Of a DNA stretch of 64,000 nt, positions 3,930-55,255 are shown piece after piece. The notes beneath the pieces were generated by a model. The model was given only the letters and a program-made list of their open reading frames with translations. It was not told the DNA's origin and made no database searches. This DNA is from Couchioplanes caeruleus (GTDB lineage Bacteria > Actinomycetota > Actinomycetes > Mycobacteriales > Micromonosporaceae). The position numbers and the translations under genes are program-made. Numbering within the stretch: position 1 is the first letter of the stretch; each line of letters opens with the position of its first letter. The stretch spans positions 8,140,501 through 8,204,500 of the forward strand of contig NZ_RJKL01000001.1 of NCBI RefSeq assembly GCF_003751945.1. Reading direction: 5' to 3'.

Positions 3930-4307
3930 GATGCACCTCTTCTCATCGGTGACCTTGCGGCGGCACTTTACTCCACTGTGGTCATTGGGGTGCCCGGCGA
4001 GACAACTGAAAGTGAATGATCTCACGCTCCGAGTGACCACTCGGGGCGGTCCGCGGCCCGTGAGCTGGACATTGTCTACCGAGAGTGCCGAGAACGCTGC
4101 TCCCAGTCCCTGCGCCGACTTGACCGGCATCGGCGCGATGACATTGGATCTCGCACGCACCGTCAGGTGGGCACAACCCACAGCGAGCGTCCCTTCTGGT
4201 GCGTCGACCCGCGGCCCGGCCACGAGTCTGCGCTGAGCACGTTCGCCGACGGTGCCGAGCACCATCCACACTCCGCCCGATCGGCGGAGCTACCCGAAGG
4301 AACGACA
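3930..4307. promoter_or_regulatory. Divergent intergenic region with inverted repeats
   Basis: 378 bases between the SRPBCC gene (leftward) and a secreted protein (rightward); no convincing gene inside. Two symmetrical elements are visible. CCGAGTG-AC-CACTCGG at 4029-4044 could be an operator. CTCCGCC-CGATC-GGCGGAG at 4271-4289 is a hairpin just upstream of the ribosome site (GAAGG) of the rightward gene, so it would lie in its 5' leader. No confident -35/-10 pair could be picked. Confidence 0.4.
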
Positions 4308-4739
4308 ATGAAGTCTCTCGCCCGCGCTTGCGTCATCGTCACGATGGCCGGCATCGCCGTCGGCGCCCTCGCCGGCCCCGCGTCCGCCGCCGACAACACG
4401 TTCGAGCTCGCCACCGGAAGCGTCAGCGCGTACGGCACGTACGACCGCATGATGAGCATCCCGGAGCGGCCCGTGCCGCCGATCCGCGTCAGCGGCACCC
4501 TGGCCGTCAACTCCGCCAACCGGTGCGGCGTCGTCCAGATCGCCTACAACGGCCCGGCCGACGGCATCGAGTGGCGCACGTTCGGTCAGCTCTGCGGCAA
4601 GGGCAAGACCAACTACACCACCACCTCGAACATGCTGTTCGGCGGCTTCCAGCCGCAGGTGCGCCTCTGCAAGGGCACCAGCGTGAAGAAGGCGGAGCGG
4701 GGCACCTCCTGCGACACCTTCACCCCGGTCGCCGACTGA
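4308..4739 (+). CDS. Small secreted protein of unknown function
   Basis: 143 aa with a clean Sec signal peptide (MKSLARACVIVTMAGIAVG, cleavage after GPASA). The mature part of about 115 aa has four cysteines (NRCGVV, QLCGKG, RLCKGT, TSCDTF), probably two disulfides, and reads as a beta-rich extracellular domain. No family was recognised; it resembles many small Streptomyces/Actinoplanes exported proteins. The ATG at 4308 is used because it opens the signal peptide and follows GAAGGAACG; upstream in-frame starts would bury the signal. Confidence 0.8.
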   Translation: MKSLARACVIVTMAGIAVGALAGPASAADNTFELATGSVSAYGTYDRMMSIPERPVPPIRVSGTLAVNSANRCGVVQIAYNGPADGIEWRTFGQLCGKGKTNYTTTSNMLFGGFQPQVRLCKGTSVKKAERGTSCDTFTPVAD

Positions 4740-5567: not shown

Positions 5568-6367
5568 GACGCATCGCCCTCCCTCTCGGGCCACGATTCC
5601 ACGGCATCGCCTGCACGCTGCAGGACGTGCACGGTCTCCACCCGGTCGCTGGCGATGACGTACTCGGTCACCTCGACGGGCTTGCCGTCGGTTCCGGACA
5701 ATCCTTGACGGACGATCTCCAGGACCGGCAGGCTCACCGGGATCTGCAGGAGGTCCGCCTCTTCCAGGGACGGCATCCGGGCGCGGTGGAACTCTGTCCA
5801 GGAGATCGGCCAGTGACCGGCGCGCTCGATGCGGTAAAGCCAGTCGCCGGCTGCGGGCTCCGCGGAGACGCCGGTCACGGCGCCGGCCACACGCGGCGCG
5901 ATCCAGCTCACCGCGATCTGGAAAGGGGCTTCCGACGCGGGCCCGGTGACCCGGACCCGGCGCAACACCTCGGTTTCCGGAGCCACGCCGAGCAGCCGGG
6001 CGAGGCGAGGATCGTCCAACGGAGCGGGAGCGCTGACCGCCTCGCCGTGCCGGACCCACTTCTCGGCGCCGGACGCCGACGGGAACGAGTATCCGAGCGC
6101 CTGTGCGTTCCGCTTGACCAGGTTGCCCCGCGGCCGCCTGGGGCGCATCGTGCCGTAGCGCACGGAGATTCCCCGGCCCTGGACAGCCCAGACGAACCCT
6201 TCGGTCTCGAGCAGGGCGATCGCGCGACCGACAGTGTCCCGGTTCGCGCCGTACTCGGTGGCGAGGTCGTCGAGCCGGGGCAGCCGCGCACCGGGCTTCC
6301 ACTCGCCGGCCTCGATGCGCTGCTGGATCCGGGCCGCTATGTCGCGGTAGCGCGAATGCATAGGCAT
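5564..6367 (-). CDS. GntR-family (HutC/UTRA) transcriptional regulator
   Basis: About 267 aa. The N-terminal winged helix (YRDIAARIQQRIEAGEWKPG, LATEYGANRDTVGRAIALLETEG) is typical GntR. The C-terminal part (RRVRVTGPASEAPFQIAVSWI through PVEVTEYVIASDRV) is a UTRA ligand domain, so this is the HutC subfamily. The start at 6367 (MPMHSRY) is chosen for GAAAGGGAAAG upstream; 6361 is the alternative. Two copies of an ATTGTC-based element just upstream make autoregulation likely. It forms an operon with the PP2C gene. Confidence 0.9.
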   Translation of the reverse strand: MPMHSRYRDIAARIQQRIEAGEWKPGARLPRLDDLATEYGANRDTVGRAIALLETEGFVWAVQGRGISVRYGTMRPRRPRGNLVKRNAQALGYSFPSASGAEKWVRHGEAVSAPAPLDDPRLARLLGVAPETEVLRRVRVTGPASEAPFQIAVSWIAPRVAGAVTGVSAEPAAGDWLYRIERAGHWPISWTEFHRARMPSLEEADLLQIPVSLPVLEIVRQGLSGTDGKPVEVTEYVIASDRVETVHVLQRAGDAVESWPEREGDAS

Positions 6368-6387
6368 GCCAACTTTCCCTTTCGCCA

Positions 6388-6446
6388 GATTGTCTTGGGA
6401 CAATCCTTGACCGGCGGGAGTGCAGCTCCAAAGATTGTCCCAAGAC
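6388..6446. promoter_or_regulatory. Paired GntR operators
   Basis: Copy 1 (6388-6405) is a palindrome: GATTGTC-TTGG-GACAATC. Copy 2 (6433-6446) is GATTGTCCCAAGAC, which is the same 14 bases as GTCTTGGGACAATC in copy 1 but on the other strand. The two lie 28 bases apart, 20 to 80 bases upstream of the GntR start. Symmetry, duplication and position make them the likely GntR binding sites, perhaps also serving the rightward reading frame at 6484. Confidence 0.75.
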
Positions 6447-6483
6447 TAACTCCGGAGCGACACGGCGTCAGGGGGCCGTCCAC

Positions 6484-6972
6484 ATGGCAGCGACGTTCGA
6501 CCGTGAGAATCAGTTCGAGGCCGCGCTGGCAGCGTTCGTCGTTCACGAGTCGCCTCGCCTGTTCGCGATCGTCCAGATACACAAGGAATATGTGGACGGT
6601 CGGATCGCAGCGTGGGGTCTGGCGTTCGAGGATCGCGCCGAGGTCGTCTCGGTGTGTGGTGGCATGCGGGTGAGGGCCGAAGCTCCTTCGCCTGTTCCCG
6701 GCGGCAGGCCGCACGCGGGCACGGCTCGTATGGGTCGACGCCTCGGTCGTCGATGGTCCGGCGACGCTGGGGCCGCCTGCCTTGTGGCGGTGAGGAACAC
6801 CGGCAGTACTGGATGTGGACCTCCGCCCGGGCACGGCAGCGGTCGGGGAAGCGTCGGATCCTGCCCATGCTGGTCTCGCGAACGGCCGCCACCGTCTCTG
6901 CCTCCGGCTCCTCCCGGCGGGGAGAATCAGTCCTTGAGGGCGGTCTCGACGTCGGTGTGCAGGGACAGGTAG
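6484..6972 (+). CDS. Hypothetical protein, probably frameshifted after residue ~65
   Basis: The first 55-60 codons read like a real protein (FDRENQFEAALAAFVV, RLFAIVQIHKEYVDG, AAWGLAFEDRAEVVSV) with high-GC third positions. After that the frame turns into low-complexity Pro/Gly/Arg sequence. A neighbouring frame continues more naturally (SFACSRRQAAR), which suggests a frameshift near 6680 in a protein of about 90 aa. It is divergent from gntR and shares the operator region. No function recognised. The right end overlaps the STAS gene on the other strand, so the true 3' limit is surely earlier than shown. Confidence 0.3.
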   Translation: MAATFDRENQFEAALAAFVVHESPRLFAIVQIHKEYVDGRIAAWGLAFEDRAEVVSVCGGMRVRAEAPSPVPGGRPHAGTARMGRRLGRRWSGDAGAACLVAVRNTGSTGCGPPPGHGSGRGSVGSCPCWSRERPPPSLPPAPPGGENQSLRAVSTSVCRDR

Positions 6973-7289
6973 CCGGTGAGGCCGAGGGTGTCGAGGAGCC
7001 GGCGCAGGAAGCCCGAGGGCGCGGCGAGCCGGACCCACCCGCCGCGTTCCATGGCTCGGCCGTGCGCCGTGACCAGCACGCCGACGCCCATGGAGTCGCA
7101 GAAGTCGAGGCCCGACAGGTCGACGACGACGTGAGGGCTGGGGCGTTCCACGAGGCGGCTCAGGTTGGCCTTCAGGGCGGGCGCGGTGTCGATGTCGAGC
7201 GAGCCGCGCAGGGTGAGGACGGCCGTGTTCGGTGGGTGGTGCGCGACCGAGACCTGCATAGGGGTGTCACTTTCGTCGGTGGCGGGCAC
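6927..7289 (-). CDS. STAS-domain anti-sigma factor antagonist
   Basis: About 120 aa, a single STAS domain: AVLTLRGSLDIDTAPALKAN, VVVDLSGLDFCDSMGVGVLV, then helices ending in SLHTDVETALKD. The serine in DFCDSMG is the conserved site that an anti-sigma kinase phosphorylates in the SpoIIAA/RsbV family. No anti-sigma kinase or sigma factor is adjacent, so its partner is elsewhere. The start is either GTG 7289 or the internal ATG at 7259 (MQVSVAHH); neither has a strong ribosome site. Confidence 0.85.
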   Translation of the reverse strand: MPATDESDTPMQVSVAHHPPNTAVLTLRGSLDIDTAPALKANLSRLVERPSPHVVVDLSGLDFCDSMGVGVLVTAHGRAMERGGWVRLAAPSGFLRRLLDTLGLTGYLSLHTDVETALKD

Positions 7290-7384
7290 GGGTCAGCCAT
7301 GGGTCGACGGGCGACGGCGGTGGTGACCTCCACCCTAGGCGAGCGGTACCGCATGGGCGAATTCAGTCGCGTACCGTTGACGCC

Positions 7385-7864
7385 GTGACGATCGACAAGG
7401 GTGACTTCGCGCCCGACTTCGCGCTGCCCGACCAGGATGGCACCACGCTGCGGCTGAGCGAGTTGCTGGCCTCCGGACCGGTGGTTCTGTTCTTCTACCC
7501 GGCCGCGATGACCAGCGGCTGCACGGTCGAGGCCTGCAACTTCCGCGATCTGGCCGCGGAGTTCGCGGCGGCGGGTGTGCAGCGTGTCGGGATCAGCCGG
7601 GACGCGGTGGCCAAGCAGAAGCAGTTCGCCGACCTGCACAACTTCGACTATCCGCTGCTCTCCGACGCGGACAGCGCGGTCGCCGCCGCCTACGGCGTCA
7701 AGCGCCGGCTGCCGTTGGGCCCGCTCAGCATCAAGCGCATGACCTTCGTGATCGACACCGACCGTACGGTGCTCGACGTCATCCACTCCGAGCTGGACAT
7801 GAACGCACACGGTGACCGGGCCCTGGAGGTCCTTCGGGCCCGGTCCGCGCGAGATGTCGCTTAG
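7385..7864 (+). CDS. bcp: Bcp-type thioredoxin-dependent peroxiredoxin
   Basis: 159 aa with the full AhpC/TSA fold: FAPDFALPDQDGTTLRLSEL, VVLFFYPAAMTSGCTVEACNFRD. The peroxidatic Cys and a second Cys five residues later match the atypical 2-Cys Bcp/PrxQ arrangement. It reduces hydroperoxides in the cytoplasm with thioredoxin. GTG start at 7385. Its 3' end overlaps the convergent zwf gene by four bases, so there is no room for a terminator between them. The neighbouring NADPH-producing enzyme fits oxidative-stress metabolism, but the genes are convergent and not an operon. Confidence 0.9.
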   Translation: MTIDKGDFAPDFALPDQDGTTLRLSELLASGPVVLFFYPAAMTSGCTVEACNFRDLAAEFAAAGVQRVGISRDAVAKQKQFADLHNFDYPLLSDADSAVAAAYGVKRRLPLGPLSIKRMTFVIDTDRTVLDVIHSELDMNAHGDRALEVLRARSARDVA

Positions 7865-9354
7865 CGGGCGTTACGCCATTTGCGGCCGCCGCGGCCGATG
7901 AGGCGGTCGGCGTCCGTGGGGCCCCAAGAGGCCGCCTCGTAGGTGGGGATCGGCGACGGGTCGTTCTCCCAGTGCTCGATGATCGGGTCGACGATGCGCC
8001 AGCACTGCTCGACCTCGTCGGTGCGGATGAACAGCGTCGGGTCGCCGAGCAGGGCGTCGAGCAGGAGCCGCTCGTAGGCCTCCGGGGACTCCTCGGCGAA
8101 CGTCTGCTCGTACGAGAAGTCCATGCTGGCCGTGCGCACCCGGAAGGAGTGGCCCGGGACCTTGGCGCCGAAGCGCAGCGAGATGCCCTCGTTGGGCTGG
8201 ATCCGCAGGATCAGCGCGTCGGTCTCGAGGTCGGTGAGCTGGTTGGCCGGGATCGGCAGGTGCGGCGGCCGCTGGAACTGCAGCGCCACCTCGGTGAGCC
8301 GGGCCGGCAGCCGCTTGCCGGTCCGCACGTAGAACGGCACCCCCGCCCACCGCCAGTTGTCGACGTTGAGCCGCATGGCCGCGTACGTCTCGGTGCGCGA
8401 CAGCGGATCGACGCCGGCCTCGTCGCGGTAGCCGGCCATCAGGTCCTCGCGGGTGCCGCCGCGGGTGTACTGGCCGCGGACCGCCAGCTCGGCGATGTCG
8501 CGGTCGGTCGGCAGCCGGATGGCCTGCAGCAGCTTGACCTTCTCGTTGCGCAGGTCCTCGGCGTTGAACGAGGCCGGCGGCTCCATGAGCGCCAGTGCGA
8601 GGACCTGCAGCACGTGGTTCTGCACGATGTCGCGCATGGCGCCGGCGTGCTCGTAGAAGCCGCCGCGGGTGCCGACGCCCAGCGTCTCGGCGACCGTGAT
8701 CTGCACGTGGTCGACCCACGAGCGGTTCCAGATGGGCTGGAAGATGGCGTTGGCGAAGCGCAGCGCCAGCACGTTCTGGACGGTGTCCTTGCCCAGGTAG
8801 TGGTCGATGCGGAAGACCTGGGGCTCGTCGAACGCGGCGTGCACGATGGCGTCCAGCTCGCGGGCGGTGCGCAGGTTGTTGCCGTACGGCTTCTCGATCA
8901 CCAGGCGGGAGAAGCTGCCGTCGCCCGCCTGGTTCAGCCCGGCGCCGGCCAGGCCCTTGATCACCGGCTCGAACGCCTCGGCGGGGGTGGAGAGGTAGAA
9001 GATGCGGTTGCCGGCGGTGCCGCGGGTGGCGTCGAGGTCGTCGAGGGTCTCCGCGAGCCGCTTGTACGTTTCCGCGTCGTCGTAGCCGCCCGATACGTAC
9101 CTGATTCCGCCCTGAAGCTGCGGCTTGTCCGCCAGGCTGCGGCCGCCCAGCGCGCTCTGCGCGAACTGGTGGTCCTCCATCGGGGTGCGGGCGACGCCCA
9201 CGAGGGCGAACTCCGCCGGCAGCCGGTTGTGCCGAGCCAGGCTCTCCACGGCGGGCAGCAGCTTGCGGCGGGTCAGATCGCCGGACGCGCCGAAGATCAC
9301 CAGTGTGGCGGGCGGTGCGTTGCGGTCCTGTGCGAGCTGGGGAACGTTGTCCAT
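7861..9354 (-). CDS. zwf: Glucose-6-phosphate 1-dehydrogenase
   Basis: 497 aa, normal length. The NADP-binding N-terminus (VIFGASGDLTRRKLLPAV), the VIEKPYGNN motif and the active-site RIDHYLGKD (about residues 183-191, His acting as base) are intact. It oxidises glucose 6-phosphate to 6-phosphogluconolactone and supplies NADPH for the pentose phosphate pathway. It stands alone here and not next to tkt/tal/opcA, as it would in the usual actinobacterial pentose-phosphate cluster, so this may be a second zwf paralogue; that is inference. Confidence 0.95.
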   Translation of the reverse strand: MDNVPQLAQDRNAPPATLVIFGASGDLTRRKLLPAVESLARHNRLPAEFALVGVARTPMEDHQFAQSALGGRSLADKPQLQGGIRYVSGGYDDAETYKRLAETLDDLDATRGTAGNRIFYLSTPAEAFEPVIKGLAGAGLNQAGDGSFSRLVIEKPYGNNLRTARELDAIVHAAFDEPQVFRIDHYLGKDTVQNVLALRFANAIFQPIWNRSWVDHVQITVAETLGVGTRGGFYEHAGAMRDIVQNHVLQVLALALMEPPASFNAEDLRNEKVKLLQAIRLPTDRDIAELAVRGQYTRGGTREDLMAGYRDEAGVDPLSRTETYAAMRLNVDNWRWAGVPFYVRTGKRLPARLTEVALQFQRPPHLPIPANQLTDLETDALILRIQPNEGISLRFGAKVPGHSFRVRTASMDFSYEQTFAEESPEAYERLLLDALLGDPTLFIRTDEVEQCWRIVDPIIEHWENDPSPIPTYEAASWGPTDADRLIGRGGRKWRNAR

Positions 9355-38940: not shown

Positions 38941-39433
38941 GTCGGTCCTTCCGGGCGCGGCAGATGCGGGGGAAGCGTGCGGTTTCCGGGGGCTGAAACC
39001 GACTCGTTCGCTTCTGCCGACAAATCTAGCCGCACGCTACGTAGCGTCAACTAACCGAAGGGCCAGGGTGACGAGGCCCGTGCGGTGAACCCCCACCATA
39101 CGTATGAGCAGTGATGATGCCCATGGACAACAGCAGTGATCACAAGTCTCATCCGTCACACTCCGTAACGGGCATTGAGGCAGTGATCGACTCAGAATGG
39201 CGAAGAATGGGCATTAGCGTCGAATGCAATTGTCGCGGGAAGGTACTCACGGAAAAATGTAATGTCCGACTTATAGTGGTGATCCACCTCACGCGGTGTA
39301 ATGTGACAGTGCGTAGGGTGACGGTTGCCGGACGGTTGTATCGGCGTGGCGGCGGCCGGAGCGGCCGTCGATGCCTAGGCTGATCACGTGACGAATCGCC
39401 GGCTCATCGCCGCCGCAGCAGGTCACCGGCACG
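38941..39433. promoter_or_regulatory. Lower-GC intergenic region upstream of the glycosyltransferases
   Basis: 493 bases; 39060-39330 falls to roughly 50% GC against about 72% elsewhere. It has no convincing gene. Features: an 8-base direct repeat TGTAATGT at 39258 and 39297, and GGTG-ATC-CACC near 39279. It is divergent-promoter space for the leftward glycosyltransferases and the rightward small Cys-rich gene, and may be horizontally acquired or a dense regulatory zone. Confidence 0.4.
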
Positions 39434-39586
39434 GTGGGTGAACCGGTGGCGACCACGACAGCGCTCTGTGTCTGCGGCCATGAGCGGGCGGCCCACGAGC
39501 ACCACCGTCGGGGCACCGACTGCGCCCTCTGTGGCCCCGAAATCTGCTCGCGTTTCCGCCGCCGCACGTGGTGGCGTCGGTCCTAG
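39434..39586 (+). CDS. Small Cys/His-rich (zinc-ribbon-like) protein
   Basis: 50 aa from GTG 39434 (GTG 39446 is also possible). LCVCGHERAAHEHHRRGTDC followed by ALCGPEIC gives two Cys pairs (CxC and CxxC) plus several His, the pattern of a family of tiny actinobacterial putative metal-binding proteins. The stop is TAG (39584-39586). The same frame continues 18 more codons with sensible residues (AAGWADFWHYVGLGL) to a TAA near 39645, so the TAG may be a recent nonsense mutation. Confidence 0.55.
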   Translation: MGEPVATTTALCVCGHERAAHEHHRRGTDCALCGPEICSRFRRRTWWRRS

Positions 39587-39591
39587 GGCCG

Positions 39592-40086
39592 CCGCAAGGC
39601 CGCCGGCTGGGCCGACTTCTGGCACTACGTCGGCCTCGGCCTGTAACGGCCGGCAGGTGCAGAACGCCCGGCGTGGTGCGCACGCCCGAGGGTCGGTGGC
39701 GGCTCTATGTCGGCGCCGCCACCCCCGGCACCAAGCACTGGCGCGTCGACCTGGTCGGGGTGGCCACCCCGCAGGGCCTGGCTACCGCGCCGGCCCGGAC
39801 GGTCCTGGCCGGCGACGCGACACCATCCAGGCCACGTACGACGGCCGGGCGACGGCGGGGGAGAACTGGGAGGAGCGCACCGGTGTGTCCCGGGGCGCCC
39901 GGCGGCCGGACGGCAGCTTCGGCGCACTGGCCGCGGCGGACGGCGAGCCGCTGGGCAGTCCCCACGCGCCCCGCGGCCTGCGCTGTCTGAGCCTGGTGAC
40001 GCTCCCGGACGGTCGCCGCCGCAGTTGTTACGAGGCCACCCCGTAAGGACGGCGCGCACGATCTGCGCACGGAGTCCGCCGGCTGA
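39592..40086 (+). pseudogene. Shattered GH43-like beta-propeller glycosidase remnant
   Basis: Three reading frames carry consecutive pieces of one protein. First GVVRTPEGRWRLYVGAATPG, then HWRVDLVGVATPQGLATA. After a shift near 39815 come TYDGRATAGENWEERTGVSR and LSLVTLPDGRRRSCYEATP. After another at 40045 comes DGAHDLRTESAG with the natural stop at 40084. These match the last blades of five-bladed GH43/GH32-type secreted hydrolases. The N-terminal half is gone. Not functional. Confidence 0.7.
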
Positions 40087-40499
40087 GAGCGCGGTCACCC
40101 CGCCCGCCCCCGGCGACGGGCGTTGATCCACTTCGTCCTATCGTCGCTCCCATCGCGCTCGGTCCTCTCTTCGACCGCCCCTACCCTTCGGCGGGCCGCG
40201 ACCTGAGTGACCTCCCATGGCGGAGCCGTCCCACAAGGACGGCCTCCGCCATGCCTGTTCCCGGACCCTCCGGGGCGATATCGCGCTTCGTCAAAGATCA
40301 GCTACGCACTGTGACGCCTGGTGACGTGAGTTGTGCCACTCCATCGACGTCGGGGCATGCCGTTGCCGGCTGCGCTGTTATGCCGCCGAAGCGTGAGAAG
40401 TCCTGATCTGCCGGGACTGCCGGGATTTCTGAGAGCGCAGGGGTGCGATCCTGGCCGTTTCGGCGAGGCGCTGAGCCCTCGCCGCGGCGCCGACGCCGG
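40087..40499. other. Intergenic region without a visible gene
   Basis: About 410 bases between the GH43-like remnant and the promoter of the SpeD-like gene. It contains a strong hairpin (annotated separately at 40216-40253) and a second one at 40461-40484 (8-bp stem CGGCGAGG / CCTCGCCG, 8-base loop). No open frame with typical codon use was seen. Confidence 0.4.
40216..40253. terminator. Strong hairpin, terminator-like
   Basis: CATGGCGGAG-CCGTCC pairs with GGACGG-C-CTCCGCCATG: 16 base pairs with one bulged C and a 5-base loop. It lies 130 bases after the end of the glycosidase remnant and insulates the downstream SpeD-like operon. Confidence 0.6.
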
Positions 40500-40527
40500 T
40501 TGACGCTCCGTAGTAACTAGCTACATT
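40500..40527 (+). promoter_or_regulatory. Promoter of the SpeD-like/acyltransferase operon
   Basis: TTGACG (-35, five of six consensus bases) is followed after 16 bases by TACATT (-10). The surrounding TAGTAACTAGCTACATTTGG is unusually AT-rich for this genome. Expected transcription start is near 40534, giving a leader of about 60 bases before the ATG at 40596. Confidence 0.55.
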
Positions 40528-40528
40528 T

Positions 40529-40547
40529 GGTACGAGGCGGGCGTACC
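40529..40547. promoter_or_regulatory. Inverted repeat overlapping the predicted transcription start
   Basis: GGTACG and CGTACC are perfect 6-bp arms with a 7-base spacer, placed just after the -10 element. The position would suit a repressor operator; it could also be a leader hairpin. Confidence 0.4.
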
Positions 40548-40595
40548 GCCTGTCTCACGCAAATCGGACCCCTGATTCCCCCGACAAGGAAGCGG

Positions 40596-40946
40596 ATGCT
40601 GGACTTCAAGGACCTCGCCCCGGCCATCACCCGTCAGCGCCTGGTCGTCGAGGGATACCCGACGTTCGTTATCACGGACGCGCACATCAAGGACTACCTG
40701 CGCCAGCTCTCGGACGTGACCGACATGATCACGATCATCGACCCGGTGACGCACGTCAGCGAGCTGTACGGCTGGGCCGGCTGGATCCACTGGGAGACCT
40801 CCGGCGCCCACTTCTACTCCTGGGAACGGCCGATCTCCTTCTTCAGCGTCGACATCTACACCTGCAAGGCGTTCGACCCGCGGGCGGTCGTCGACTTCAC
40901 CCGGGAGTACTTCCGCACCACCGAGATCGTCGCGAAGGAGTTCTGA
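40596..40946 (+). CDS. SpeD-like (S-adenosylmethionine decarboxylase fold) protein
   Basis: 116 aa, the length of bacterial class 1B AdoMet decarboxylase. The segment YGWAGWIHWETSGAHFYSWE and then FFSVDIYTCKAFDP align with the SpeD core YGVSG...SESHLTIHTW...AAIDLFTCG. The Ser of ETSG falls on the self-cleaving Ser that becomes pyruvoyl, but the residue before it is Thr where Glu is usual, and the His of IHTW is Tyr here. So this is a divergent member, with activity on AdoMet uncertain. ATG 40596 follows AAGGAAGCGG. The acyltransferase gene starts three bases after its stop. Confidence 0.65.
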   Translation: MLDFKDLAPAITRQRLVVEGYPTFVITDAHIKDYLRQLSDVTDMITIIDPVTHVSELYGWAGWIHWETSGAHFYSWERPISFFSVDIYTCKAFDPRAVVDFTREYFRTTEIVAKEF

Positions 40947-40949
40947 GCC

Positions 40950-41801
40950 GTGACCGCCGTGACCGGCACCCGCTATGAGATCAGCCCCACCACGGCACGC
41001 TGGATCGTCGCCGACTTCCTCGACGCGCACCCGACGCCACGCGGGCGCTTCGTCAGCGCGGTCGTCGGCCCCGGCACCCAGCTCGCCGACGTCGGACGGG
41101 CGCTGGAACGGCAGGTCTTCGAGCGGACCTTCGGCAACGACGCCGCGGTCATGGCGGGCGAGTACGGCCCGTACGAGGCGAACAGCATCTTCTTCGTCGT
41201 GCTCGACCGCCGCCGCCGCGTCCCGGCCGGGGTGGCCCGCATGATCGAGAGCACCGGCCGGGGCGTCAAGACGATCGACGACGCGCCGCGGCACATCGGC
41301 GTCGGCACCGCCGACATCCTGGCCGCGCACGGCATGGACGGCGGACGCGTCTGGGACTGCGCGACCCTGGCCGTGCTGCCGGAGTACCGCGGCAGCCGCT
41401 CGTCGCTGATCGTCAGCTCCCTGCTCTACCGCACCTTCCTGGTCATCGGCGGGCGGCGCGGGGTCCGGCACGCGGTCGCCATGCTCGACCGCGGCGCGTA
41501 CCGCAACATCGGGATGCTCGGCACGCCGTTGCGCCCGCTCGCCGGATCGGGGCCGTTCGCCTACCTCGGTTCGCCCGAGAACCGCGCGGTGTACATGGAC
41601 TTCCCGGCGATCGCCCCGGCCGTCGCCGCGCAGGCCGCCGTGCACCGCCGCGCGGCCCGGCCCGGCCTGGCCACGCTGCGCCCGGGTGGCCTGCGCCGGA
41701 TGCTGACCCGCCGCGTCGCCGCGACGGTCTCGCGGCGCGTCGGCACCGGCCAGGACCTCGACCGCCTCATCGTCGTCCCGGACGGCGCGATACACCTGTG
41801 A
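40950..41801 (+). CDS. Autoinducer-synthase-like (GNAT clan) acyltransferase
   Basis: 283 aa from GTG 40950. ERQVFERTFGNDAAVMAGEY, FFVVLDRRRRVPAGVARMIE, VWDCATLAVLPEYRG, SSLIVSSLLYRTFLVIGGRR and YRNIGMLGTPLRPLAG follow the order of motifs in the acyl-homoserine-lactone synthase/N-acyl amino acid synthase clan, where WxxxxLAV corresponds to the WElSRfaV block of LuxI. A C-terminal Arg/Ala-rich tail of about 70 residues is extra. Family members join an acyl-ACP or acyl-CoA to an amine; LuxI uses AdoMet. Acceptor and acyl group here are unknown. Confidence 0.6.
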   Translation: MTAVTGTRYEISPTTARWIVADFLDAHPTPRGRFVSAVVGPGTQLADVGRALERQVFERTFGNDAAVMAGEYGPYEANSIFFVVLDRRRRVPAGVARMIESTGRGVKTIDDAPRHIGVGTADILAAHGMDGGRVWDCATLAVLPEYRGSRSSLIVSSLLYRTFLVIGGRRGVRHAVAMLDRGAYRNIGMLGTPLRPLAGSGPFAYLGSPENRAVYMDFPAIAPAVAAQAAVHRRAARPGLATLRPGGLRRMLTRRVAATVSRRVGTGQDLDRLIVVPDGAIHL

Positions 41802-41912
41802 CCCCCGCTTCCTCGATCGGTGGGTGAGGCGTTTGTGCTCACCGATGCCGGGGTACCCGACGGAGATCACGGCGCGGGCGGGGCGCCGTGCAACAGCCTC
41901 AGGAGGTGGCCG

Positions 41913-42890
41913 ATGCGCACGCTGGGCGGGCGGTACCAGCTCGTACAGCGCATCGGCATCGGCGGGATGTCCGAGGTGTGGCGCGGCCACGACCGGGTGC
42001 TGGACCGGCCGGTAGCCGTGAAGATCATGGCGCCGGCCGTGGAGGGCACGCTCGGCGACGTGAACGGCGTCGAGCTCGTCCGCACCGAGGCACGCTCCGC
42101 GGCCCGGCTGGCACATCCCAACGTCGCCGGCGTGCACGACTTCGGCACGTCGCCGGCGCCGGGCCGGGAGGTCCCGTACATCGTCATGGAGCTGGTCGAG
42201 GGGCAGACCCTCATGGAGCACCTCGCCGGTGGCCGGCTCGACTGGCGCATCGCCGTGCGGATCTGCGCCGAGGTCGCGGCGGCGCTGGCCGCCGCGCACG
42301 CCGAGCAGGTCGTGCACCGCGACGTCAAGCCCGCCAACATCATGCTCACCCCGTCCGGGGCGAAGGTCCTCGACTTCGGGATCGCGGCCTCCACCGGCAC
42401 CCCCGACCCCGATCCGGACGGCCCGGTCATGGGTACGCCGGCCTATGTCGCACCGGAACGCTTCGAGGGCCTGCCCGCCACCCCGGCCTCCGACATGTAC
42501 TCGCTCGGCGTGCTGCTCTATCACTGCCTTTCCGGCCGGCTGCCCTGGAACGCCGAGTCCGGCACCGCGCTCGTGTACGCCCAGCGCTACCGCGACCCGG
42601 ACCCGCTGCCGCCCGTCGACGGCCTCGCGACCGAGGTGGTCGACCTGTGCTCGCGGTGCCTGCACAAGGACCCGGCGGAGCGACCGACCGCGCTGGTCGC
42701 GGCCCTGCTGCTGGCCGAGGCGGTGGACGCCCGCGTCTACGTCCCGCTGGCCGACCTGGGCACCCGGATGCCCCGCCCGTCGACGCTGTCGCCGTGGGAC
42801 GAGCGGGCGGCGCAGGCGTCGACGGACATGGCGCTGCCGGTGGACCAGGAGACGATCGTGCAGGAACGCCCCGGCCGTCACCGCGCCTGA
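41913..42890 (+). CDS. Soluble Ser/Thr protein kinase
   Basis: 325 aa, a complete Hanks-type kinase domain: RIGIGGMSEVWRGHD (glycine loop), VAVKIMAP (ATP Lys), VVHRDVKPANIML (catalytic loop, about residue 133), VLDFGIAAS (DFG), GTPAYVAPE and DMYSLGVLLYHCLSG. No membrane helix or PASTA repeats, so it is cytosolic. The tail ends DQETIVQERPGRHRA, with an acidic Thr motif like those in the large membrane protein at 32401. ATG 41913 has an ideal AGGAGGTGGCCG. It lies 110 bases after the acyltransferase, possibly co-transcribed. Confidence 0.92.
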   Translation: MRTLGGRYQLVQRIGIGGMSEVWRGHDRVLDRPVAVKIMAPAVEGTLGDVNGVELVRTEARSAARLAHPNVAGVHDFGTSPAPGREVPYIVMELVEGQTLMEHLAGGRLDWRIAVRICAEVAAALAAAHAEQVVHRDVKPANIMLTPSGAKVLDFGIAASTGTPDPDPDGPVMGTPAYVAPERFEGLPATPASDMYSLGVLLYHCLSGRLPWNAESGTALVYAQRYRDPDPLPPVDGLATEVVDLCSRCLHKDPAERPTALVAALLLAEAVDARVYVPLADLGTRMPRPSTLSPWDERAAQASTDMALPVDQETIVQERPGRHRA

Positions 42891-42919
42891 TCGGCGTTCC
42901 GGGGCTCCACCGCGGCGGC

Positions 42920-43789
42920 TCAGCCGCTGCGGGGAACGACGACGACCGGACGGCGGGCCCGGCGCAGCAGCCGCGCCGACACGCCGCCGAGCAGCACCCG
43001 CCGTGCCGGGCCGTAGCCGCGCGAACCGCAGAACAGCACGTCCACGTCGTCCAGCTCGGCGAGCTGGTCGACCACGTCGCCGACGCGGATCTCCCAGTCC
43101 ACGCGTGCGTCGGGCACCGACTCCGCGGCCCGGGCCAGCGACTGCTCGTAGGTCTCGCGGGCGGTGTCGAGGAAGGCGCGCTCGGCGTCCTGACCGACGA
43201 GGAACGGCAGCGCCGCGTCGGCCCCGGCCACCACCGTCGAGAGCCGGATGCGGCTGCCGGTGCGCACCGCCAGCCGCGCCGCCGCCTCCAGCGCCGCGCG
43301 GCCGTCGGGAGTGTCCACATACGCGACGCCGATGCGGCCGTACGCCCCCGGCGGCGTCTCCAGGCCCGACGGGGCCACCGCCACCGGGCACACGCTGCCG
43401 GCCAGGAGCCGGTCGGCGGTGCTGCCCGTGAAGAGCCGGTGCCGGGGACCCGCCCGCCCGGAACCCACCACGATGAGCTCCGCCCGCAGCTCCTCGGCCA
43501 GGTCGTGCAGGCCGTGCGCCGCGGAGCTCGAGGCGACGATCCGGAACTGCGCGTCCTCGGGCGCCCCGGCGAGCAGCGCGCGGGCGTCCTCCAGCACGGC
43601 CCCGGCGGCCCGGTCGCGGTCGGCGATCCACTCGGCGTCCACCCGGCCCGAGCCCAGCGCCGCGGGCGCCGGGCGTACCACCGCCACCACCAGCGGAACG
43701 CCGAGCACCGACGCCGCCCACCGGCCCAGGACCAGGGCGTCCCGGCCGGTGGCACCCCCGTCCACCCCCACGATCACCGGGCCGGTCAC
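42920..43789 (-). CDS. Tandem universal stress protein
   Basis: 289 aa, two UspA domains. Repeat 1 begins VIVGVDGGATGRDALVLGRW and has the ATP motif VGSGRAGPRHRLFTGSTADRLL. Repeat 2 begins RIGVAYVDTPDGRAALEAA and has CGSRGYGPARRVLLGGVSARLL, each a G-2x-G-9x-G(S) pattern. Such proteins bind ATP and respond to stress or dormancy in actinobacteria. GTG start overlaps the permease stop, so the two are coupled. Confidence 0.92.
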   Translation of the reverse strand: MTGPVIVGVDGGATGRDALVLGRWAASVLGVPLVVAVVRPAPAALGSGRVDAEWIADRDRAAGAVLEDARALLAGAPEDAQFRIVASSSAAHGLHDLAEELRAELIVVGSGRAGPRHRLFTGSTADRLLAGSVCPVAVAPSGLETPPGAYGRIGVAYVDTPDGRAALEAAARLAVRTGSRIRLSTVVAGADAALPFLVGQDAERAFLDTARETYEQSLARAAESVPDARVDWEIRVGDVVDQLAELDDVDVLFCGSRGYGPARRVLLGGVSARLLRRARRPVVVVPRSG

Positions 43790-45956: not shown

Positions 45957-46979
45957 ATGGAGCCAGCGGCCGGAGCATGGTGCACCGCGACCGAGGTCGG
46001 GTTCCGGCTGCGTGACCACGAACACCGGCTGGCCGGCGCACGGCTGGAGTCCGGCGTCACCGGCGGCGACTTCCACTACCGCGACGAGATCCGTACCTGG
46101 GAGCTGCGCCTGCCCCGGCCGGCGGTGCAGCGCGTCGAATACCGGCTGACGCTCGCCCACCCCGACGGCCGCGTCGAGACCGTCGCCGACCCGGACAACC
46201 CGCGCCGGCAGGGCGAGGCGTCGGTGCTGTGCTGCCCGGACTACCGCGAACCCGGCTGGCTGAGCCTGCCCCACGGCGCCGGCCGCTGGCGTGACGTCTA
46301 CCTGCCGCTGCCGCCCGTGCACGGCGAGATGGTCGCCCGCATCTGGTCGCCGGACCTGCCCACCGACCGCGTCGTCGTCGCCCACGACGGTCCGGACTAC
46401 CACCGGCACGGAGAGCTCGGCCGCTACAGCGCCGCCATGATCGGTGCCGGGCGCGTGCCGCCGTACCATCTCGTGCTGCTTCCGCCGGGGGAGCGGCTCG
46501 AGTGGTATTCGGCCAGCCCGGCGTACGCCCGCGCGCTCGCCGGCGACGTGCTGCCCAAGATCGCCGCCGAGCTGGGCACCACCCGGCCCGTGGTGGGCGT
46601 CGGCGCCAGCCTCGGCGGGCTCGCCATGCTGCACGCCCAGCGCCGGCACCCGGCCGGGTTCGGCGGCCTGTTCCTGCAGTCGGGCAGCTTCTTCCAGCCG
46701 CGCCACGACCGGCAGGAGTCCGGCTTCCGCCGCTACCTGCGGATCGTGCGCTTCACCGGCCGGGTGGTCCGGGCCGCCGACGGTCCCGGCGTGCCGGTTG
46801 CGCTCACATGCGGCACCGTGGAGGAGAACCTCGCCAACAACCGGGACATGGCGCGTGCTTTGCGCGATCACGGGTACGCCGTGACGTTCGCGCAGGTGCC
46901 GGACGCGCACAACTGGACCGCTTGGCGGGACGCGCTCGACCCGCACCTCACCGCACTGCTGCAGAAGGTGTTCAACTAA
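45957..46979 (+). CDS. Enterochelin esterase-like alpha/beta hydrolase
   Basis: 340 aa. The N-terminal 110 residues form a CBM48/E-set-like beta domain (VEYRLTLAHPDGRVETVADP, GWLSLPHGAGRW) as in Fes/IroE esterases. The hydrolase core has VVVAHDGPDYHRHGELGRYS, the nucleophile elbow GVGASLGGLAML, a probable acid in VALTCGTVEENL and the catalytic His in VPDAHNWTAW. These enzymes hydrolyse esters of siderophore-like lactones. Directly followed, 11 bases later, by an ATP-grasp gene. Confidence 0.82.
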   Translation: MEPAAGAWCTATEVGFRLRDHEHRLAGARLESGVTGGDFHYRDEIRTWELRLPRPAVQRVEYRLTLAHPDGRVETVADPDNPRRQGEASVLCCPDYREPGWLSLPHGAGRWRDVYLPLPPVHGEMVARIWSPDLPTDRVVVAHDGPDYHRHGELGRYSAAMIGAGRVPPYHLVLLPPGERLEWYSASPAYARALAGDVLPKIAAELGTTRPVVGVGASLGGLAMLHAQRRHPAGFGGLFLQSGSFFQPRHDRQESGFRRYLRIVRFTGRVVRAADGPGVPVALTCGTVEENLANNRDMARALRDHGYAVTFAQVPDAHNWTAWRDALDPHLTALLQKVFN

Positions 46980-46990
46980 AGGAGGCGCCA

Positions 46991-48226
46991 ATGGCCGACG
47001 TCGAGCACACCATCGGACTGCTGCTGGGCACCGAGGACGACTGGCCACGGGCGTACGAGGCCCTGCTGCGCAGGGTCGGGGCGATCACCGACGGCACCGG
47101 GCGTACCCATCGCATCCGCAGTGTGCGGGTCACCATCGAGCCGTTCAACCTGCGCGCCTCGCCGCGGCACGATCTGATCATCGACCGGCTCGCGTACTGG
47201 TACTACCACCCGCGCGAGTGGCTCAAGAAGGTCGCGCTGATGAACGACGTGTACCTGCTCAACAGCCCGTTCACCTTCCAGTCCATGGAGAAGCATGCCG
47301 CGTACTGCGCGATGATGCGGCTCGGCCTCAAGGTGCCCGAGACGGTCCTGGTCCCGTTCAAGAACCCGCTCGACAACTCCCGGTACGCCTACACCTCGGC
47401 GCGCTACAACCAGCCGTTCAACCTGGACGCGCTGGCCGCGGCGGTCGGCTATCCGATGTTCATGAAGCCGTACGACGGCGGCGCCTGGGTCGGCGTGTCC
47501 AAGATCCGCAATCCGGCGGAGCTGCACGCCGCATACGACGCCTCGGGGGAGCGGCTCATGCATCTCCAGGCCGCCGTCGAGGACTACGACGTCTTCGCGC
47601 GCTCGCTCACCATCGGCCCCGAGACGATGGTGATGAAGTTCCGTCCCGACCTGCCGATGCACGAGCGCTACGCGGTCGACCACAACTTCCTCGGCGCCGC
47701 GGTCGGCGAGGAGGTCGTCACCATCTCGCGGCTGGTCAACGCCTTCTTCCGGTGGGAGTTCAACTCCTGCGAGTCGCTGGTCAAGGGCGACGACGTGCAC
47801 CCGATCGACTACGCCAACGCCTGCCCGGACGTGGCCGTGACCTCGCTGCACTACTACTTCCCGTGGGCGATGGCGGCGCTGCTGCGCTGGACCGTCTACT
47901 GCGTGGTGACCGGCCGCAGGCCCCGCCTCGACATGGACACCTCGGCCTACTTCGCCGTCGCCGACGACCCGGATCTGTCCTATGCGGAGAAGCTCGGCTG
48001 CTACCGGCGGCTCGCCGACGACTACTTCGAGACGGCCCGCTACGAGGAGTTCTGCGAGAAGCACCTTTCCCACGTCGACGAGATGGTGCACGAATGGGTC
48101 GGCTCCCCGGAGTTCCGGTCCCTGCTCGGCGAGACGGTCCGCGCCATGTACCCGCCGCACGAGCACGAACGCTTCCTCGGCCACTTCGGCGGCCTCATCG
48201 ACGCCTGGCTGCGCGAGAATGGCTGA
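46991..48226 (+). CDS. ATP-grasp ligase-like protein
   Basis: 411 aa. Central ATP-grasp features: VYLLNSPFTFQSMEKHAAYC, GLKVPETVLVP, YPMFMKPYDGGAWVGVSKIR (ATP Lys and Gly loop), a later acidic metal region and YFPWAMAALLRW. The family joins carboxylates to amines or thiols via acyl phosphate. The first 70 residues (VEHTIGLLLGTEDDWPRAYE) resemble an N-terminal pre-ATP-grasp domain. Ribosome site GGAGGCGCCA is ideal. Its 3' end overlaps the P450 start by 8 bases, so both act on one product, which is inference. Confidence 0.75.
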   Translation: MADVEHTIGLLLGTEDDWPRAYEALLRRVGAITDGTGRTHRIRSVRVTIEPFNLRASPRHDLIIDRLAYWYYHPREWLKKVALMNDVYLLNSPFTFQSMEKHAAYCAMMRLGLKVPETVLVPFKNPLDNSRYAYTSARYNQPFNLDALAAAVGYPMFMKPYDGGAWVGVSKIRNPAELHAAYDASGERLMHLQAAVEDYDVFARSLTIGPETMVMKFRPDLPMHERYAVDHNFLGAAVGEEVVTISRLVNAFFRWEFNSCESLVKGDDVHPIDYANACPDVAVTSLHYYFPWAMAALLRWTVYCVVTGRRPRLDMDTSAYFAVADDPDLSYAEKLGCYRRLADDYFETARYEEFCEKHLSHVDEMVHEWVGSPEFRSLLGETVRAMYPPHEHERFLGHFGGLIDAWLRENG

Positions 48227-49484
48227 CCTCGCCGGCACCCTGCGCTTCGCCGCGGCCCTGCACGGCCGCCGGCTGGGCTTCGTCTACCACGGGTACGTGC
48301 GCCGCGACCCGATGTCGCTGCTGCACCTGCGGCCGGGACGCGACGACCCGTACGCCATCTACCGCGGCATGCCGGTGCTCGGGCCCACCCGGCTCGGCCA
48401 CTGGGTGACGACCAGCCACGCCCTGTGCGACAGCGTGCTGCGGGACCGGCGGTTCGGCGTACGCTCCGCGGAGCTGACCGTGCCCACCCCGCCGACCGAC
48501 GGCTTCGACATGTCCTTCCTCGACCGGGACCCGCCCGACCACACCCGGCTACGCCGCCTGGCGCAGCCGGCGTTCGCCCCCAAGCGCATCGCCCGTTACC
48601 GCGCCCGCGTGGAGGCGACCGTCGACCGCCTGCTCGACGACGCGGCCACCGCAGGGGGATTCGACCTGGTGCCCGCCTTCGCGGCGCCGCTGCCGATCGC
48701 CGTCATCACCGACCTGCTCGGCGTCCCCGACGCGGACGCCGCCCGCTTCGCCCGTTACGGCGCGGTGATCGGCAGCGCCCTCGACGGCATCCGGTCGCTG
48801 ACCCACGCCGCCCGCCTCCAGGCGGCGAGGAACGACCTGCACGACCTCTTCGAGCGCCTCTTCGCCCTGCGCCGCGCCGCGCCCGCGGACGACGTGGTCA
48901 CCGCCGTCGTGGCGGCCGAGGGCGACCGCATCCGGGCCGAGGAGATGGTCCCGATGTGCATGCTGCTGCTGGTGGCAGGCTTCGAGACCACGGTCAACCT
49001 GATCGGCAACGCGGTCAACGCCCTGCTCGCGAACGCCGACCAGTGGGCGGCCCTCTGCGCCGACCCGGCCGCCCTCGCCCCGTTGGCGGTCGAGGAGACC
49101 CTGCGCTACGACCCGCCGGTCCAGCGCACCGCCCGCTGCGCCCAGCAGGACCTCGAGCTGAACGGCCGGCTCATCCGCGAGGGGCAGTTCGTGGTCACGC
49201 TCATCGGCGCGGCCAACCGCGATCCTGTGGCGTTCCCCGATCCGGACAGGTTCGACATCCACCGCAAACCGGCCGCCGAGCACCTTGCGTTCTCCAGTGG
49301 CATCCACTACTGCGTGGGCGCGCCGCTCGCCCGGATGGAGGCGACGGTCGCCCTGCAACGTCTCGCCGAACGCATGCCGGACCTGCGCCGGGCCGGTCCG
49401 CTGCGGCGGCGGGTGTCGAGCACGGTCCGCGGACCGATCAGCTTCCCCGTCCGTACGTCGGCCAAGGTCATGTCCGCCCGGTGA
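48219..49484 (+). CDS. Cytochrome P450
   Basis: 421 aa. I-helix AGFETT (about residue 252), K-helix EETLRYDPP, then FSSGIHYCVGAPLAR with heme Cys near residue 364. No redox partner is adjacent; soluble bacterial CYP of the class that uses ferredoxin and ferredoxin reductase. The 8-base overlap with the ATP-grasp gene shows coupled translation. Its role is presumably hydroxylation or coupling of the compound made by this small cluster. Confidence 0.93.
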   Translation: MADLAGTLRFAAALHGRRLGFVYHGYVRRDPMSLLHLRPGRDDPYAIYRGMPVLGPTRLGHWVTTSHALCDSVLRDRRFGVRSAELTVPTPPTDGFDMSFLDRDPPDHTRLRRLAQPAFAPKRIARYRARVEATVDRLLDDAATAGGFDLVPAFAAPLPIAVITDLLGVPDADAARFARYGAVIGSALDGIRSLTHAARLQAARNDLHDLFERLFALRRAAPADDVVTAVVAAEGDRIRAEEMVPMCMLLLVAGFETTVNLIGNAVNALLANADQWAALCADPAALAPLAVEETLRYDPPVQRTARCAQQDLELNGRLIREGQFVVTLIGAANRDPVAFPDPDRFDIHRKPAAEHLAFSSGIHYCVGAPLARMEATVALQRLAERMPDLRRAGPLRRRVSSTVRGPISFPVRTSAKVMSAR

Positions 49485-53736: not shown

Positions 53737-53808
53737 TCCGGGCCTCTGAGGCCGGCGGGGTATCGTCGCTGCGGTGTTCAGTTGTCCGGTCCGCGAGGGG
53801 ATGACCAG

Positions 53809-55255
53809 GTGAGGGGCCCGCTCCTGCCGGGTGACCCGCGGCGGCTCGGCGGATACCGCCTGGAAGGCCGCCTCGGCCAGGGCGGCATGGGCACCGTCTA
53901 CCTCGGCTACGGCCCCGACGGCCGCCCGGTGGCGATCAAGGTCATCAAGCCCGAGTATGCCTACGAGGAGCAGTTCCGCGCCCGCTTCCGCAGCGAGGTC
54001 ACCCGGGCCCGGCAGGTGCCTCCGTTCTGCACCGCCGAGGTGCTCGACGCCGACGCCGACCACGAGACGCCGTACCTGGTCGTCGAGTACGTCGACGGCC
54101 CGAGCCTGGCCGAGATCGTCGCGCAGCAGGGGCCGTTGAGCAGCGGCAACCTCTACAGCGTCGCGGTCGGCGTGGCCACCGTGCTGGCCGCGATCCACGG
54201 CGCCGGACCTGAGCGGCCTTCCTGCGTCGTTGCGCGACCTCGTCGCGATGACCCTGGAGAAGGACCCCGGCCGCCGGCCGTCGGCGGCCGACCTTCTCGA
54301 CCGGCTGCTCGCCGCCGGTGGACAGGCCGCCGCGGGCGCCGGGGGTGGACAGGCCGCGGCGGGCGCCGGGGGTGGACAGGCCGCCGCGGGCGCCGCCGGT
54401 CTGTCGGGCCTGCCGGAGCTGCGACGCGTGGCGCAGGTTGTACAGCGCTCCGGCCCGAGCCGTGAGCAGGTCACGGACGGCCGCGGCACCGGGGTGACCC
54501 CGCGGCGCTGGCGGCGGTTGGCGCCCGCCCTGGCCGCCGCGGCGATCGGCGGCATCGCGCTCGCCGGCTTGCTGACGTTCGGGCCCAGCCGGGAGCTGGT
54601 GCTGGGCCGGGACGCCGACGCCGGATCGCCGGGCGCACCGGCGACGGCCGCATCGACGCCGGCGACCGCGCTCCCGCCGACCGGTAGCGCCTCGCCCGCC
54701 GACCGCCCGGCCAACGGACGTGCGGAGCCGGACCGGGAGGCACCGGCCGGCGCACCGGCCGTCACCCGGACCGAGCCATCCGTCCCTTCCGCGTCGCCGG
54801 CGGTCCGGCCGTGCCGCAACTCCGACGTCCGCGTGTCGGTCGCGGCGCAGAACGACAATGCGGCCGAGACGAGTACGCGGAAAGCGATCGTCTCGGTGGT
54901 CAACGAGTCGGCCACCGCCTGCCGGGTCGACGGCCGGGTCACCATCCAGCTCTACGACGCCGCCGACGAGGCGGTGCCGGTGCCGACCCAAGGCGTCGAC
55001 CAGCCGGGCCCGGCCGCCGAGATCGTCCTGCGGCCGGGCAACGCCGCCTTCCAGGGCATCAAGTGGCAGGCGTGCGACCTCGCCGCCGCGGACTGCCCCG
55101 CCGGCAACACGCTGCGCGGCAGCCTCGGCACGTCGTCCCCGGGCGTGGTGGCCGTCCTGGAGGGCTTCTCCTCACCGCAGGGTCACCACATCACCATGCG
55201 TACGCTGCAGCTCGGCACCCTGCAACCCGCCACCGACGGCACCGTGGCGTGGTGA
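53809..55255 (+). pseudogene. Membrane Ser/Thr kinase with its catalytic core deleted
   Basis: N-terminal half from GTG 53809: RLGGYRLEGRLGQGGMGTVYLG, VAIKVIKPEY and LAAIHGAG, the end of the N-lobe and helix E. The next kinase sequence, in a different frame, is PDLSGLPASLRDLVAMTLEKDPG, the end of the C-lobe. The HRDLKP loop, DFG and APE (about 110 residues) are missing, and the join near 54208 is out of frame. After it come a repeat linker, one membrane helix (ALAAAAIGGIALAGLLTF) and a DUF4232-like domain (RVSVAAQNDNA, VSVVNESATACRVDGRVTI). Not an active kinase; the DUF4232 part might still be made from a start near 54230. Confidence 0.85.
54317..54397. repeat. 27-bp tandem repeat in the kinase linker
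   Basis: Three head-to-tail 27-bp units starting GGTGGACAGGCCGC at 54317, 54344 and 54371, differing by one to three bases. They encode Gly-Gly-Gln-Ala-Ala-Ala-Gly-Ala-Gly in the juxtamembrane linker of the decayed kinase. Confidence 0.9.

Follow-up and report, generated by a model that had tools for sequence, protein, structure and literature searches.

What do two small adjacent genes of the soil bacterium Couchioplanes caeruleus make together, when one resembles speD, the gene of S-adenosylmethionine (AdoMet) decarboxylase, and the other the acyltransferases of the LuxI and FeeM clan? Both lie in a stretch of 64,000 nucleotides, hereafter the window (G000:C1:8140501-8204500; contig NZ_RJKL01000001.1), of a genome of 8.43 Mb in two contigs. 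We propose that the two genes form a biosynthetic module with an N-acyl amine as product, and we lean towards this product being an extracellular signal read by the sensors encoded beside the pair in relatives. The two-step decarboxylase–acyltransferase pathway is held with good confidence, and a signal role appears fairly likely once the pathway is granted. Direct support comes from the folds of both predicted models, the conserved pairing, natural fusions, invariant residues and linkage to sensor genes. A first-pass annotation of the DNA letters had suggested a two-enzyme system that makes an amine and acylates it, perhaps as a diffusible signal or an envelope lipid. The results below support the amine acylation, and the diffusible-signal branch gains evidence from the linked sensor genes in relatives.

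Conservation and fusion of the two genes

The 80 loci compared here are the best of 128 decarboxylase relatives, ranked by SpeD similarity, from a scan of genome contigs. They were found with the peptides WAGWIHW and FFSVD[IV]YT, so that conservation inside these stretches is a selection effect (Ser68, Gly69, His71, Tyr73 and Cys89 lie outside them), and many of the loci are closely related and not independent. In 75 of the 80, SpeD is followed directly, on its own strand, by the acyltransferase gene; the hosts comprise Micromonosporaceae, Geodermatophilaceae, Actinotalea, Acidimicrobiia, M. sphagni, Saccharibacteria, and one bin each of Patescibacteria and Acidobacteria. By the pair's genes, the closest named relatives of the window belong to Couchioplanes, Pseudosporangium and Actinoplanes. 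Further, 42 longer proteins containing the decarboxylase were collected, with a length limit corresponding to read-through of both genes, and in 36 of these the acyltransferase follows the decarboxylase in a single fused protein (it is lacking in P0257, P0263, P0266, P0267, P0277 and P0281). Eleven of the fusions are named from fungi (Apiospora, Neoarthrinium, Xylariales and Calycina; P0242, P0244, P0245, P0247-P0252, P0254 and P0262) and share at most 69% identity with the window's decarboxylase, an apparent case of transfer between bacteria and fungi. The pair first noticed in the window is hence kept in relatives, and the 75 loci together with the fusions rule out chance neighbours.

In 60 related genomes, the window's own being counted and the set overlapping the 80 loci (e.g. 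G020/L007 and G050/L062), a strong SpeD match (E < 1e-50) was obtained in 19, with the acyltransferase at most 50 bp away in 18. In the remaining genome, G036, SpeD and the acyltransferase are separated by a GGDEF-EAL gene, a gene order first seen in G262; a 20th genome, G005, gave only a weak SpeD match (E 8.7e-5). Among 73 copies (the window plus 72 of the 80 loci), SpeD identities correlated with acyltransferase identities (r 0.85, reached in 0 of 999 permutations), a value to which ancestry contributes. The median identity was 64% for SpeD versus 29% for the acyltransferase; the decarboxylase is the constant partner and the acyltransferase the variable one.

The spread of the SpeD-like family across Actinomycetota is rare and patchy: of 396 genomes surveyed in the phylum, nine contained any SpeD match and four a strong one (E < 1e-30, the window's genome included). 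In the acyltransferase tree, M. sphagni (L031) groups with Saccharibacteria (support 91/80, under the program's star), which suggests gene transfer between the two lineages.

The SpeD-like protein

The SpeD-like protein matched PF02675 with E 1.8e-9, which passes the family cut-off, and its predicted model gave a strong structural match to the AdoMet decarboxylase fold and thus to the SpeD clan, as anticipated at first pass. TIGR03330, the equivalog of true SpeD, returned 15.2 bits, far below its cut-off of 75.65. Residue numbers for this protein count from the residue after Met. Ser68 and Cys89, which correspond to the pyruvoyl Ser63 and the catalytic Cys83 of class 1b SpeD, were invariant in all 80 loci and in all 42 longer proteins. 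The catalytic and processing His68 of class 1b SpeD is replaced by Tyr73 with the same regularity (80/80 and 42/42). Both departures recorded by the first-pass annotation, a changed residue before the pyruvoyl Ser (ETSG) and Tyr in place of a conserved His, are thus real, Thr being the residue that precedes Ser at the pyruvoyl position. Self-cleavage is predicted between Thr67 and Ser68 (Ser codon 40800-40802). His71 is invariant as well and lies on the predicted strand 69-75, where, judging from the alternation of side chains, it should be on the same face as the active site. The aromatic stretch GWAGWIHW was invariant or almost so, in part by selection, WAGWIHW being a search peptide. Searching the PDB sequences with the single proteins and with the SpeD profile returned nothing useful (RNA-binding proteins, E 0.04-2).

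Ordinary spermidine synthesis in the window's genome is ruled out by the TIGR03330 failure together with a search for speE (spermidine synthase), which returned no match at E <= 0.001 in this genome and matched 10 of 14 control genomes. Among 19 genomes of related loci, 12 had no speE match and seven matched below the cut-off, three of these with E < 1e-30; the cut-off is strict, only four of the 10 matching control genomes passing it, and the failure of the related genomes is thus little informative. PF02675 matched only nine of these 19 genomes, each chosen for a copy of this decarboxylase, and is an insensitive test for second copies.

More distant SpeD homologues were also encountered. Plasmids yielded three distant relatives of the window's SpeD; these form a sister family (L110-L112, from Nostoc, Acaryochloris and Halioglobus) with 33-38% identity, DSG or ESG, and Tyr for His68. 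On the Acaryochloris plasmid (L111:3905-5354), a tandem GNAT (GCN5-related N-acetyltransferase) gene outside this acyltransferase family stands 40 bp 5' of SpeD. Three phage records matched L084, a SpeD comparator with the standard motif and the sole phage query. Winogradskya humida carries a second SpeD homologue (L083:896-1833) with ETSS and apparently with His68 kept, overlapping by four bases a 185-aa gene with no Pfam match at E <= 10. A more distant decarboxylase (L095:2633-3031, E 4e-32) was found in a fragmented genome (G351:C92), which gave no acyltransferase match at E <= 1e-6.

The acyltransferase

The window's acyltransferase alone had no Pfam match, Autoind_synth (PF00765) included. 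Among 37 aligned relatives, weak family matches were to Acetyltransf_5 (PF13444) in 16, to Autoind_synth in nine (best E 3.8e-4) and to FeeM (PF21926) in four. The predicted model, with a predicted local distance difference test score (pLDDT) of 94.6, had FeeM, BjaI, MesI, RpaI, LasI and TofI as its top Foldseek matches, a strong match to the LuxI/GNAT clan that had been named at first pass. The VIA-align scores were 17.5 for RpaI, 17.1 for BjaI, 16.6 for FeeM and 16.1 for LasI; a plain acetyltransferase (5jph) equaled FeeM with 16.6, and the structure matches therefore do not fix the chain length. The residues R50, E53, F57, D86, R97 and D136 are conserved, in what we take to be the LuxI motif order, and the order ascribed earlier to the LuxI/N-acyl amino acid synthase clan agrees with the clan of the structures matched.

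The Ser103-Arg104 of the AdoMet-binding bulge of LuxI-type enzymes is not kept. In a weak alignment of the acyltransferase profile with LasI (E 1.9), Arg104 of LasI falls on Thr139, and at this position the 75 acyltransferases have Thr (63), Ser (10), Val (1) or a gap (1), that is Thr or Ser in 73. The portion of PMC1282579 drawn on here places Arg104 in the bulge and links it to AdoMet binding. Apart from this LasI alignment, the PDB sequence search with the acyltransferase profile returned ferritin (E 0.58).

Signalling genes beside the pair

The profiles used to detect signalling genes derive from genes close to the pair, a choice that makes such genes easier to find, and multi-pass refers to a hydropathy count. 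A signalling gene stood at up to 700 bp in 66 of the 160 flanks, of which 150 had full coverage at that range; farther out there were 12 at 0.7-2 kb (138 flanks covered), two at 2-4 kb (123) and three at 4-7 kb (56). At least one such gene was present within 700 bp in 56 of the 80 loci.

Two types of sensor were observed. The gene that follows in Saccharibacteria and M. sphagni encodes a multi-pass sensor histidine kinase. The M. sphagni kinase (L031) contains HisKA_7TM, GAF, HisKA and HATPase domains and belongs to a module of the Saccharibacteria type; in Saccharibacteria themselves a lone receiver gene is often divergent, 5' of the pair. Geodermatophilaceae, Actinotalea and Acidimicrobiia have a neighbouring gene for a multi-pass GGDEF-EAL protein, which is placed upstream on the same strand, downstream and convergent, upstream and divergent, or flanked by the genes of the pair. 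Searched with the GGDEF-EAL sensor region, 10 of 10 genomes of this type had their best match adjoining SpeD, G075, G076, G077, G262, G360 and one G078 copy having given no row to the profile; the G077 match was weak (E 5.3e-8), and in G078 a match also stood beside a second SpeD copy. The histidine-kinase sensor region gave a single match in six of seven carrier genomes and a tandem second one in G069, always beside the module; since all seven had given profile rows, the informative part is that there were no other matches.

When all six frames of the window were checked at E <= 1e-6, GGDEF, EAL, histidine-kinase and receiver domains gave no match, and the only hits were two to Ser/Thr kinases, at 41913-42890 and near 53737-54462. 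None of the 16 distant GGDEF-EAL sensor-region matches of the genome lies inside the window. On this check a linked membrane sensor is rejected for the window itself, where the only linked signalling gene is the Ser/Thr kinase directly behind the pair. That kinase had been called soluble at first pass, and accordingly no strong transmembrane stretch was found in it. Among the 80 loci, 13 have a kinase of this family close to the pair; all 13 belong to the Actinoplanes group, with the kinase on the same strand in eight and on the opposite strand in five (one of the five at 4.9 kb). The window's kinase may be co-transcribed with the pair, as suggested at first pass, and is a possible output or regulator. 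The second match is an open frame (53737-54462, E 1.7e-33) located 11 kb 3' of the first kinase.

A proposed pathway and the evidence that weighs against it

In the pathway that we propose, the SpeD-like protein would be a self-processing pyruvoyl enzyme with a remodelled active site that decarboxylates AdoMet or an amino acid, yielding an amine, and the LuxI/FeeM-clan acyltransferase would N-acylate this amine from acyl-CoA (coenzyme A) or acyl-ACP (acyl carrier protein). The pyruvoyl cofactor forms a Schiff base with the free alpha-amine of its substrate; because of this need, decarboxylation must precede N-acylation. The simplest product, an N-acyl amine, would be exported and serve as an extracellular signal for the linked sensors. 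In relatives these would be GGDEF-EAL proteins or histidine kinases, both multi-pass, and in the window perhaps the Ser/Thr kinase. A signal is suggested by the constant decarboxylase, the variable acyltransferase, the patchy spread and the linked signalling genes. Our guess for the amine is a diamine such as putrescine or agmatine, since SpeD homologues are known that act as ornithine or arginine decarboxylases and since a SpeD-less paralogue of the acyltransferase adjoins an Orn/Lys/Arg decarboxylase. The latter is the second acyltransferase copy of the window's genome (L093:4612-5478; G000:C1:7597000-7607500), which has no SpeD; an Orn/Lys/Arg decarboxylase of 835 aa (5793-8300, by Pfam) faces it tail to tail, and a receiver-like open frame (3860-4315) is located upstream of it. 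Two of 14 further SpeD-less copies have a tail-to-tail decarboxylase of this kind by similarity; such neighbours are hints of putrescine, cadaverine or agmatine.

Several observations speak against this proposal. Of 15 acyltransferase copies examined that lack an adjacent SpeD, only three have an Orn/Lys/Arg decarboxylase beside them; the other 12 showed no such partner among all six-frame open frames, on which the SpeD-less copies were rechecked, a simple gene caller having missed genes (G036 and G051 were examined besides the 15, and the G018 fragment was left out). In G051, the SpeD-less acyltransferase still adjoins a GGDEF-EAL gene. Conversely, SpeD occurs without this acyltransferase in L039, L042, L048, L068 and L081, and the next gene of L042 weakly resembles a phosphatidylglycerol-lysyltransferase domain (E 1.8e-4, below the cut-off). 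The loss of His68 makes self-processing uncertain. When the Actinoplanes group was compared with the other loci, the identity correlation fell to r 0.16. With regard to the sensors, 24 of the 80 loci had no signalling gene detected within 700 bp, and 14 of these 24 come from the Actinoplanes group, which is also the window's own; relatives of the GGDEF-EAL sensor region are frequent elsewhere, with 16 matches in the window's genome and 11 in G061; and in L007 the GGDEF-EAL neighbour contains PAS domains and is possibly not multi-pass. A receptor domain shared by both sensor types was looked for and not found, as the regions do not align (probability 1%). Bacterial sensors, moreover, cannot account for the fungal fusions.

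Alternative explanations

The same two steps could yield a structural or protective product, either an aminolipid of the membrane or envelope or a polyamine N-acylated for storage or detoxification, the linkage to sensors then reflecting regulation by the state of the envelope; we regard this as possible though unlikely. Acetyltransf_5, the commonest family match of the acyltransferase relatives (16/37), also includes lipid-forming N-acyltransferases. The FeeM-like TyzA yields a lipid precursor according to the part of PMC10404671 drawn on here, the fungal fusions lack bacterial sensors, and the weak match behind SpeD in L042 would fit a lipid. Set against these points, the part of the neighbours that was scanned showed no lipid-synthesis gene apart from L042. 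Plain lipid enzymes would not lead one to expect that 56 of the 80 loci carry a signalling gene at most 700 bp away, or that a GGDEF-EAL gene separates the two enzymes in G262 and G036. The acyltransferase also diverges far faster than SpeD.

It is improbable, in our view, that AdoMet is the true substrate of the SpeD-like protein and that the partner acylates decarboxylated AdoMet or a breakdown product of it to an N-acyl homoserine lactone (AHL)-like molecule without the lactone. Both clans include AdoMet-acting enzymes, the near-invariant GWAGWIHW stretch, partly a product of search-peptide selection, could stack adenine, and Thr or Ser in place of LasI Arg104 (PMC1282579) might suit a substrate without a carboxylate. 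Nevertheless, the TIGR03330 score is far under its cut-off, and the anomalous SpeD homologues described in the portion of PMC10407285 used here are ornithine or arginine decarboxylases. That the SpeD-like protein has ceased to be an enzyme and instead binds or regulates the acyltransferase is very improbable: the change of His68 to Tyr in 80/80 loci and the acyltransferases without SpeD would fit such a role, but Ser68 and Cys89 are kept in all loci and longer proteins, His71 is invariant, and SpeD is the more conserved partner.

Comparison with known systems

The SpeD-derived ornithine and arginine decarboxylases SpeDC and SpeDA were characterised by Li et al. 2023 (PMC10407285). As far as the portion of that paper drawn on here extends, they share with the window family the lack of a spermidine synthase alongside the SpeD homologue and the retention of the pyruvoyl-position Ser and the catalytic Cys. 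They differ in two respects: conservation of His68 is part of the reasoning there, whereas the window family has Tyr, and they occur mostly in polyamine clusters, whereas the neighbours of the window family are an acyltransferase gene and signalling genes. The main text of the same paper contains none of the words acyl, N-acetyltransferase and GNAT.

LuxI-type AHL synthases (RpaI, BjaI and LasI) share the fold, as the best structural matches, and the motif order R..E..VF, D, G..R, with WD..T in the window family versus WE..R in LuxI by the LasI alignment. Unlike these synthases, the family has Thr or Ser for Arg104 (73/75), a dedicated decarboxylase partner, and linked sensors that are membrane proteins with cyclic di-GMP (c-di-GMP) or kinase outputs. 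FeeM and TyzA acylate the amino acid itself, whereas the decarboxylase partner here implies an amine. The diffusible signal factor (DSF) system RpfF/RpfC/RpfG and CqsA/CqsS are signalling systems that combine a synthase with a membrane sensor. As in those systems, the synthase genes adjoin a multi-pass kinase or a c-di-GMP enzyme; the synthases are unrelated, and the present pair differs by its two-enzyme synthesis and its enzyme fusions. No description of the pair was found in open-access literature titles and abstracts, subscription journals and preprints being outside the scope, and the portions of PMC9654057 and PMC9992855 drawn on added nothing decisive. The pair's recurrence in distant bacteria and fungi, with sensor genes adjoining it in many bacteria, suggests a chemical signalling system not described before.

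Features of the window

The features around the pair are collected in the table below.

Table 1. Coordinates of the pair and of adjoining features in the window.
Feature	Position	Strand	Remarks
Promoter-like site TTGACG-16-TACATT	40500..40527	+	5' of the pair; 2 sites in 40100-43000 vs 0.1 expected
SpeD-like gene	40596..40946	+	ATG 40596, stop TGA 40944-40946; 116 aa including Met
AAGGAG, likely ribosome-binding site of the acyltransferase gene	40935..40940	+	Within the SpeD-like gene; read from sequence
Acyltransferase gene	40950..41801	+	GTG start, 283 aa; LuxI/FeeM clan
Ser/Thr protein kinase gene	41913..42890	+	325 aa, first gene 3' of the pair; PF00069 (Pkinase) E 7.2e-45

The two genes share one strand and one reading frame with a gap of three bases, located exactly as first annotated, and the placement of AAGGAG could couple their translation. 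Upstream, TTGACGCT-N12-GCTA is repeated in seven of 10 aligned regions, the window counted among them. Of the palindrome reported earlier at the predicted start, the sequence elements are present, namely TAGCTA (40518-40523) and GGTACG/CGTACC (40529-40547), each with arms of six bases, but the claim is weak: neither is kept in L002. The interval 40440-40600 contains seven short inverted repeats. The approximately 1.4 kb 5' of the pair (39100-40500) holds no convincing gene. Farther downstream, an open frame at 46502-48226 with only a weak D-Ala-D-Ala-ligase C-terminal match precedes a cytochrome P450 frame (48093-49484), and the two are possibly a small biosynthetic cluster.

Implications

Beyond the window, we tentatively put forward an undescribed class of autoinducers: N-acyl amines from a pyruvoyl decarboxylase and a LuxI-clan acyltransferase, in which the amine would be constant across phyla, the acyltransferase would have diversified for specificity, and the fused form would occur in fungi. 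In bacterial carriers, multi-pass histidine kinases or GGDEF-EAL proteins would be the dedicated receivers of the signal. To our knowledge, few acyl signals are known in the groups carrying the pair. If the proposal is true, it would add new small-molecule signalling chemistry in groups that include Saccharibacteria, and the signal could carry messages between Saccharibacteria and Actinomycetota. For expression and analysis it would supply a defined cassette of two genes, or one gene in the fused form. The absence of His68 makes the family a test case for the self-processing of pyruvoyl enzymes, and SpeD would have acquired another fate, in which the decarboxylase supplies an acyltransferase and not polyamine synthesis.

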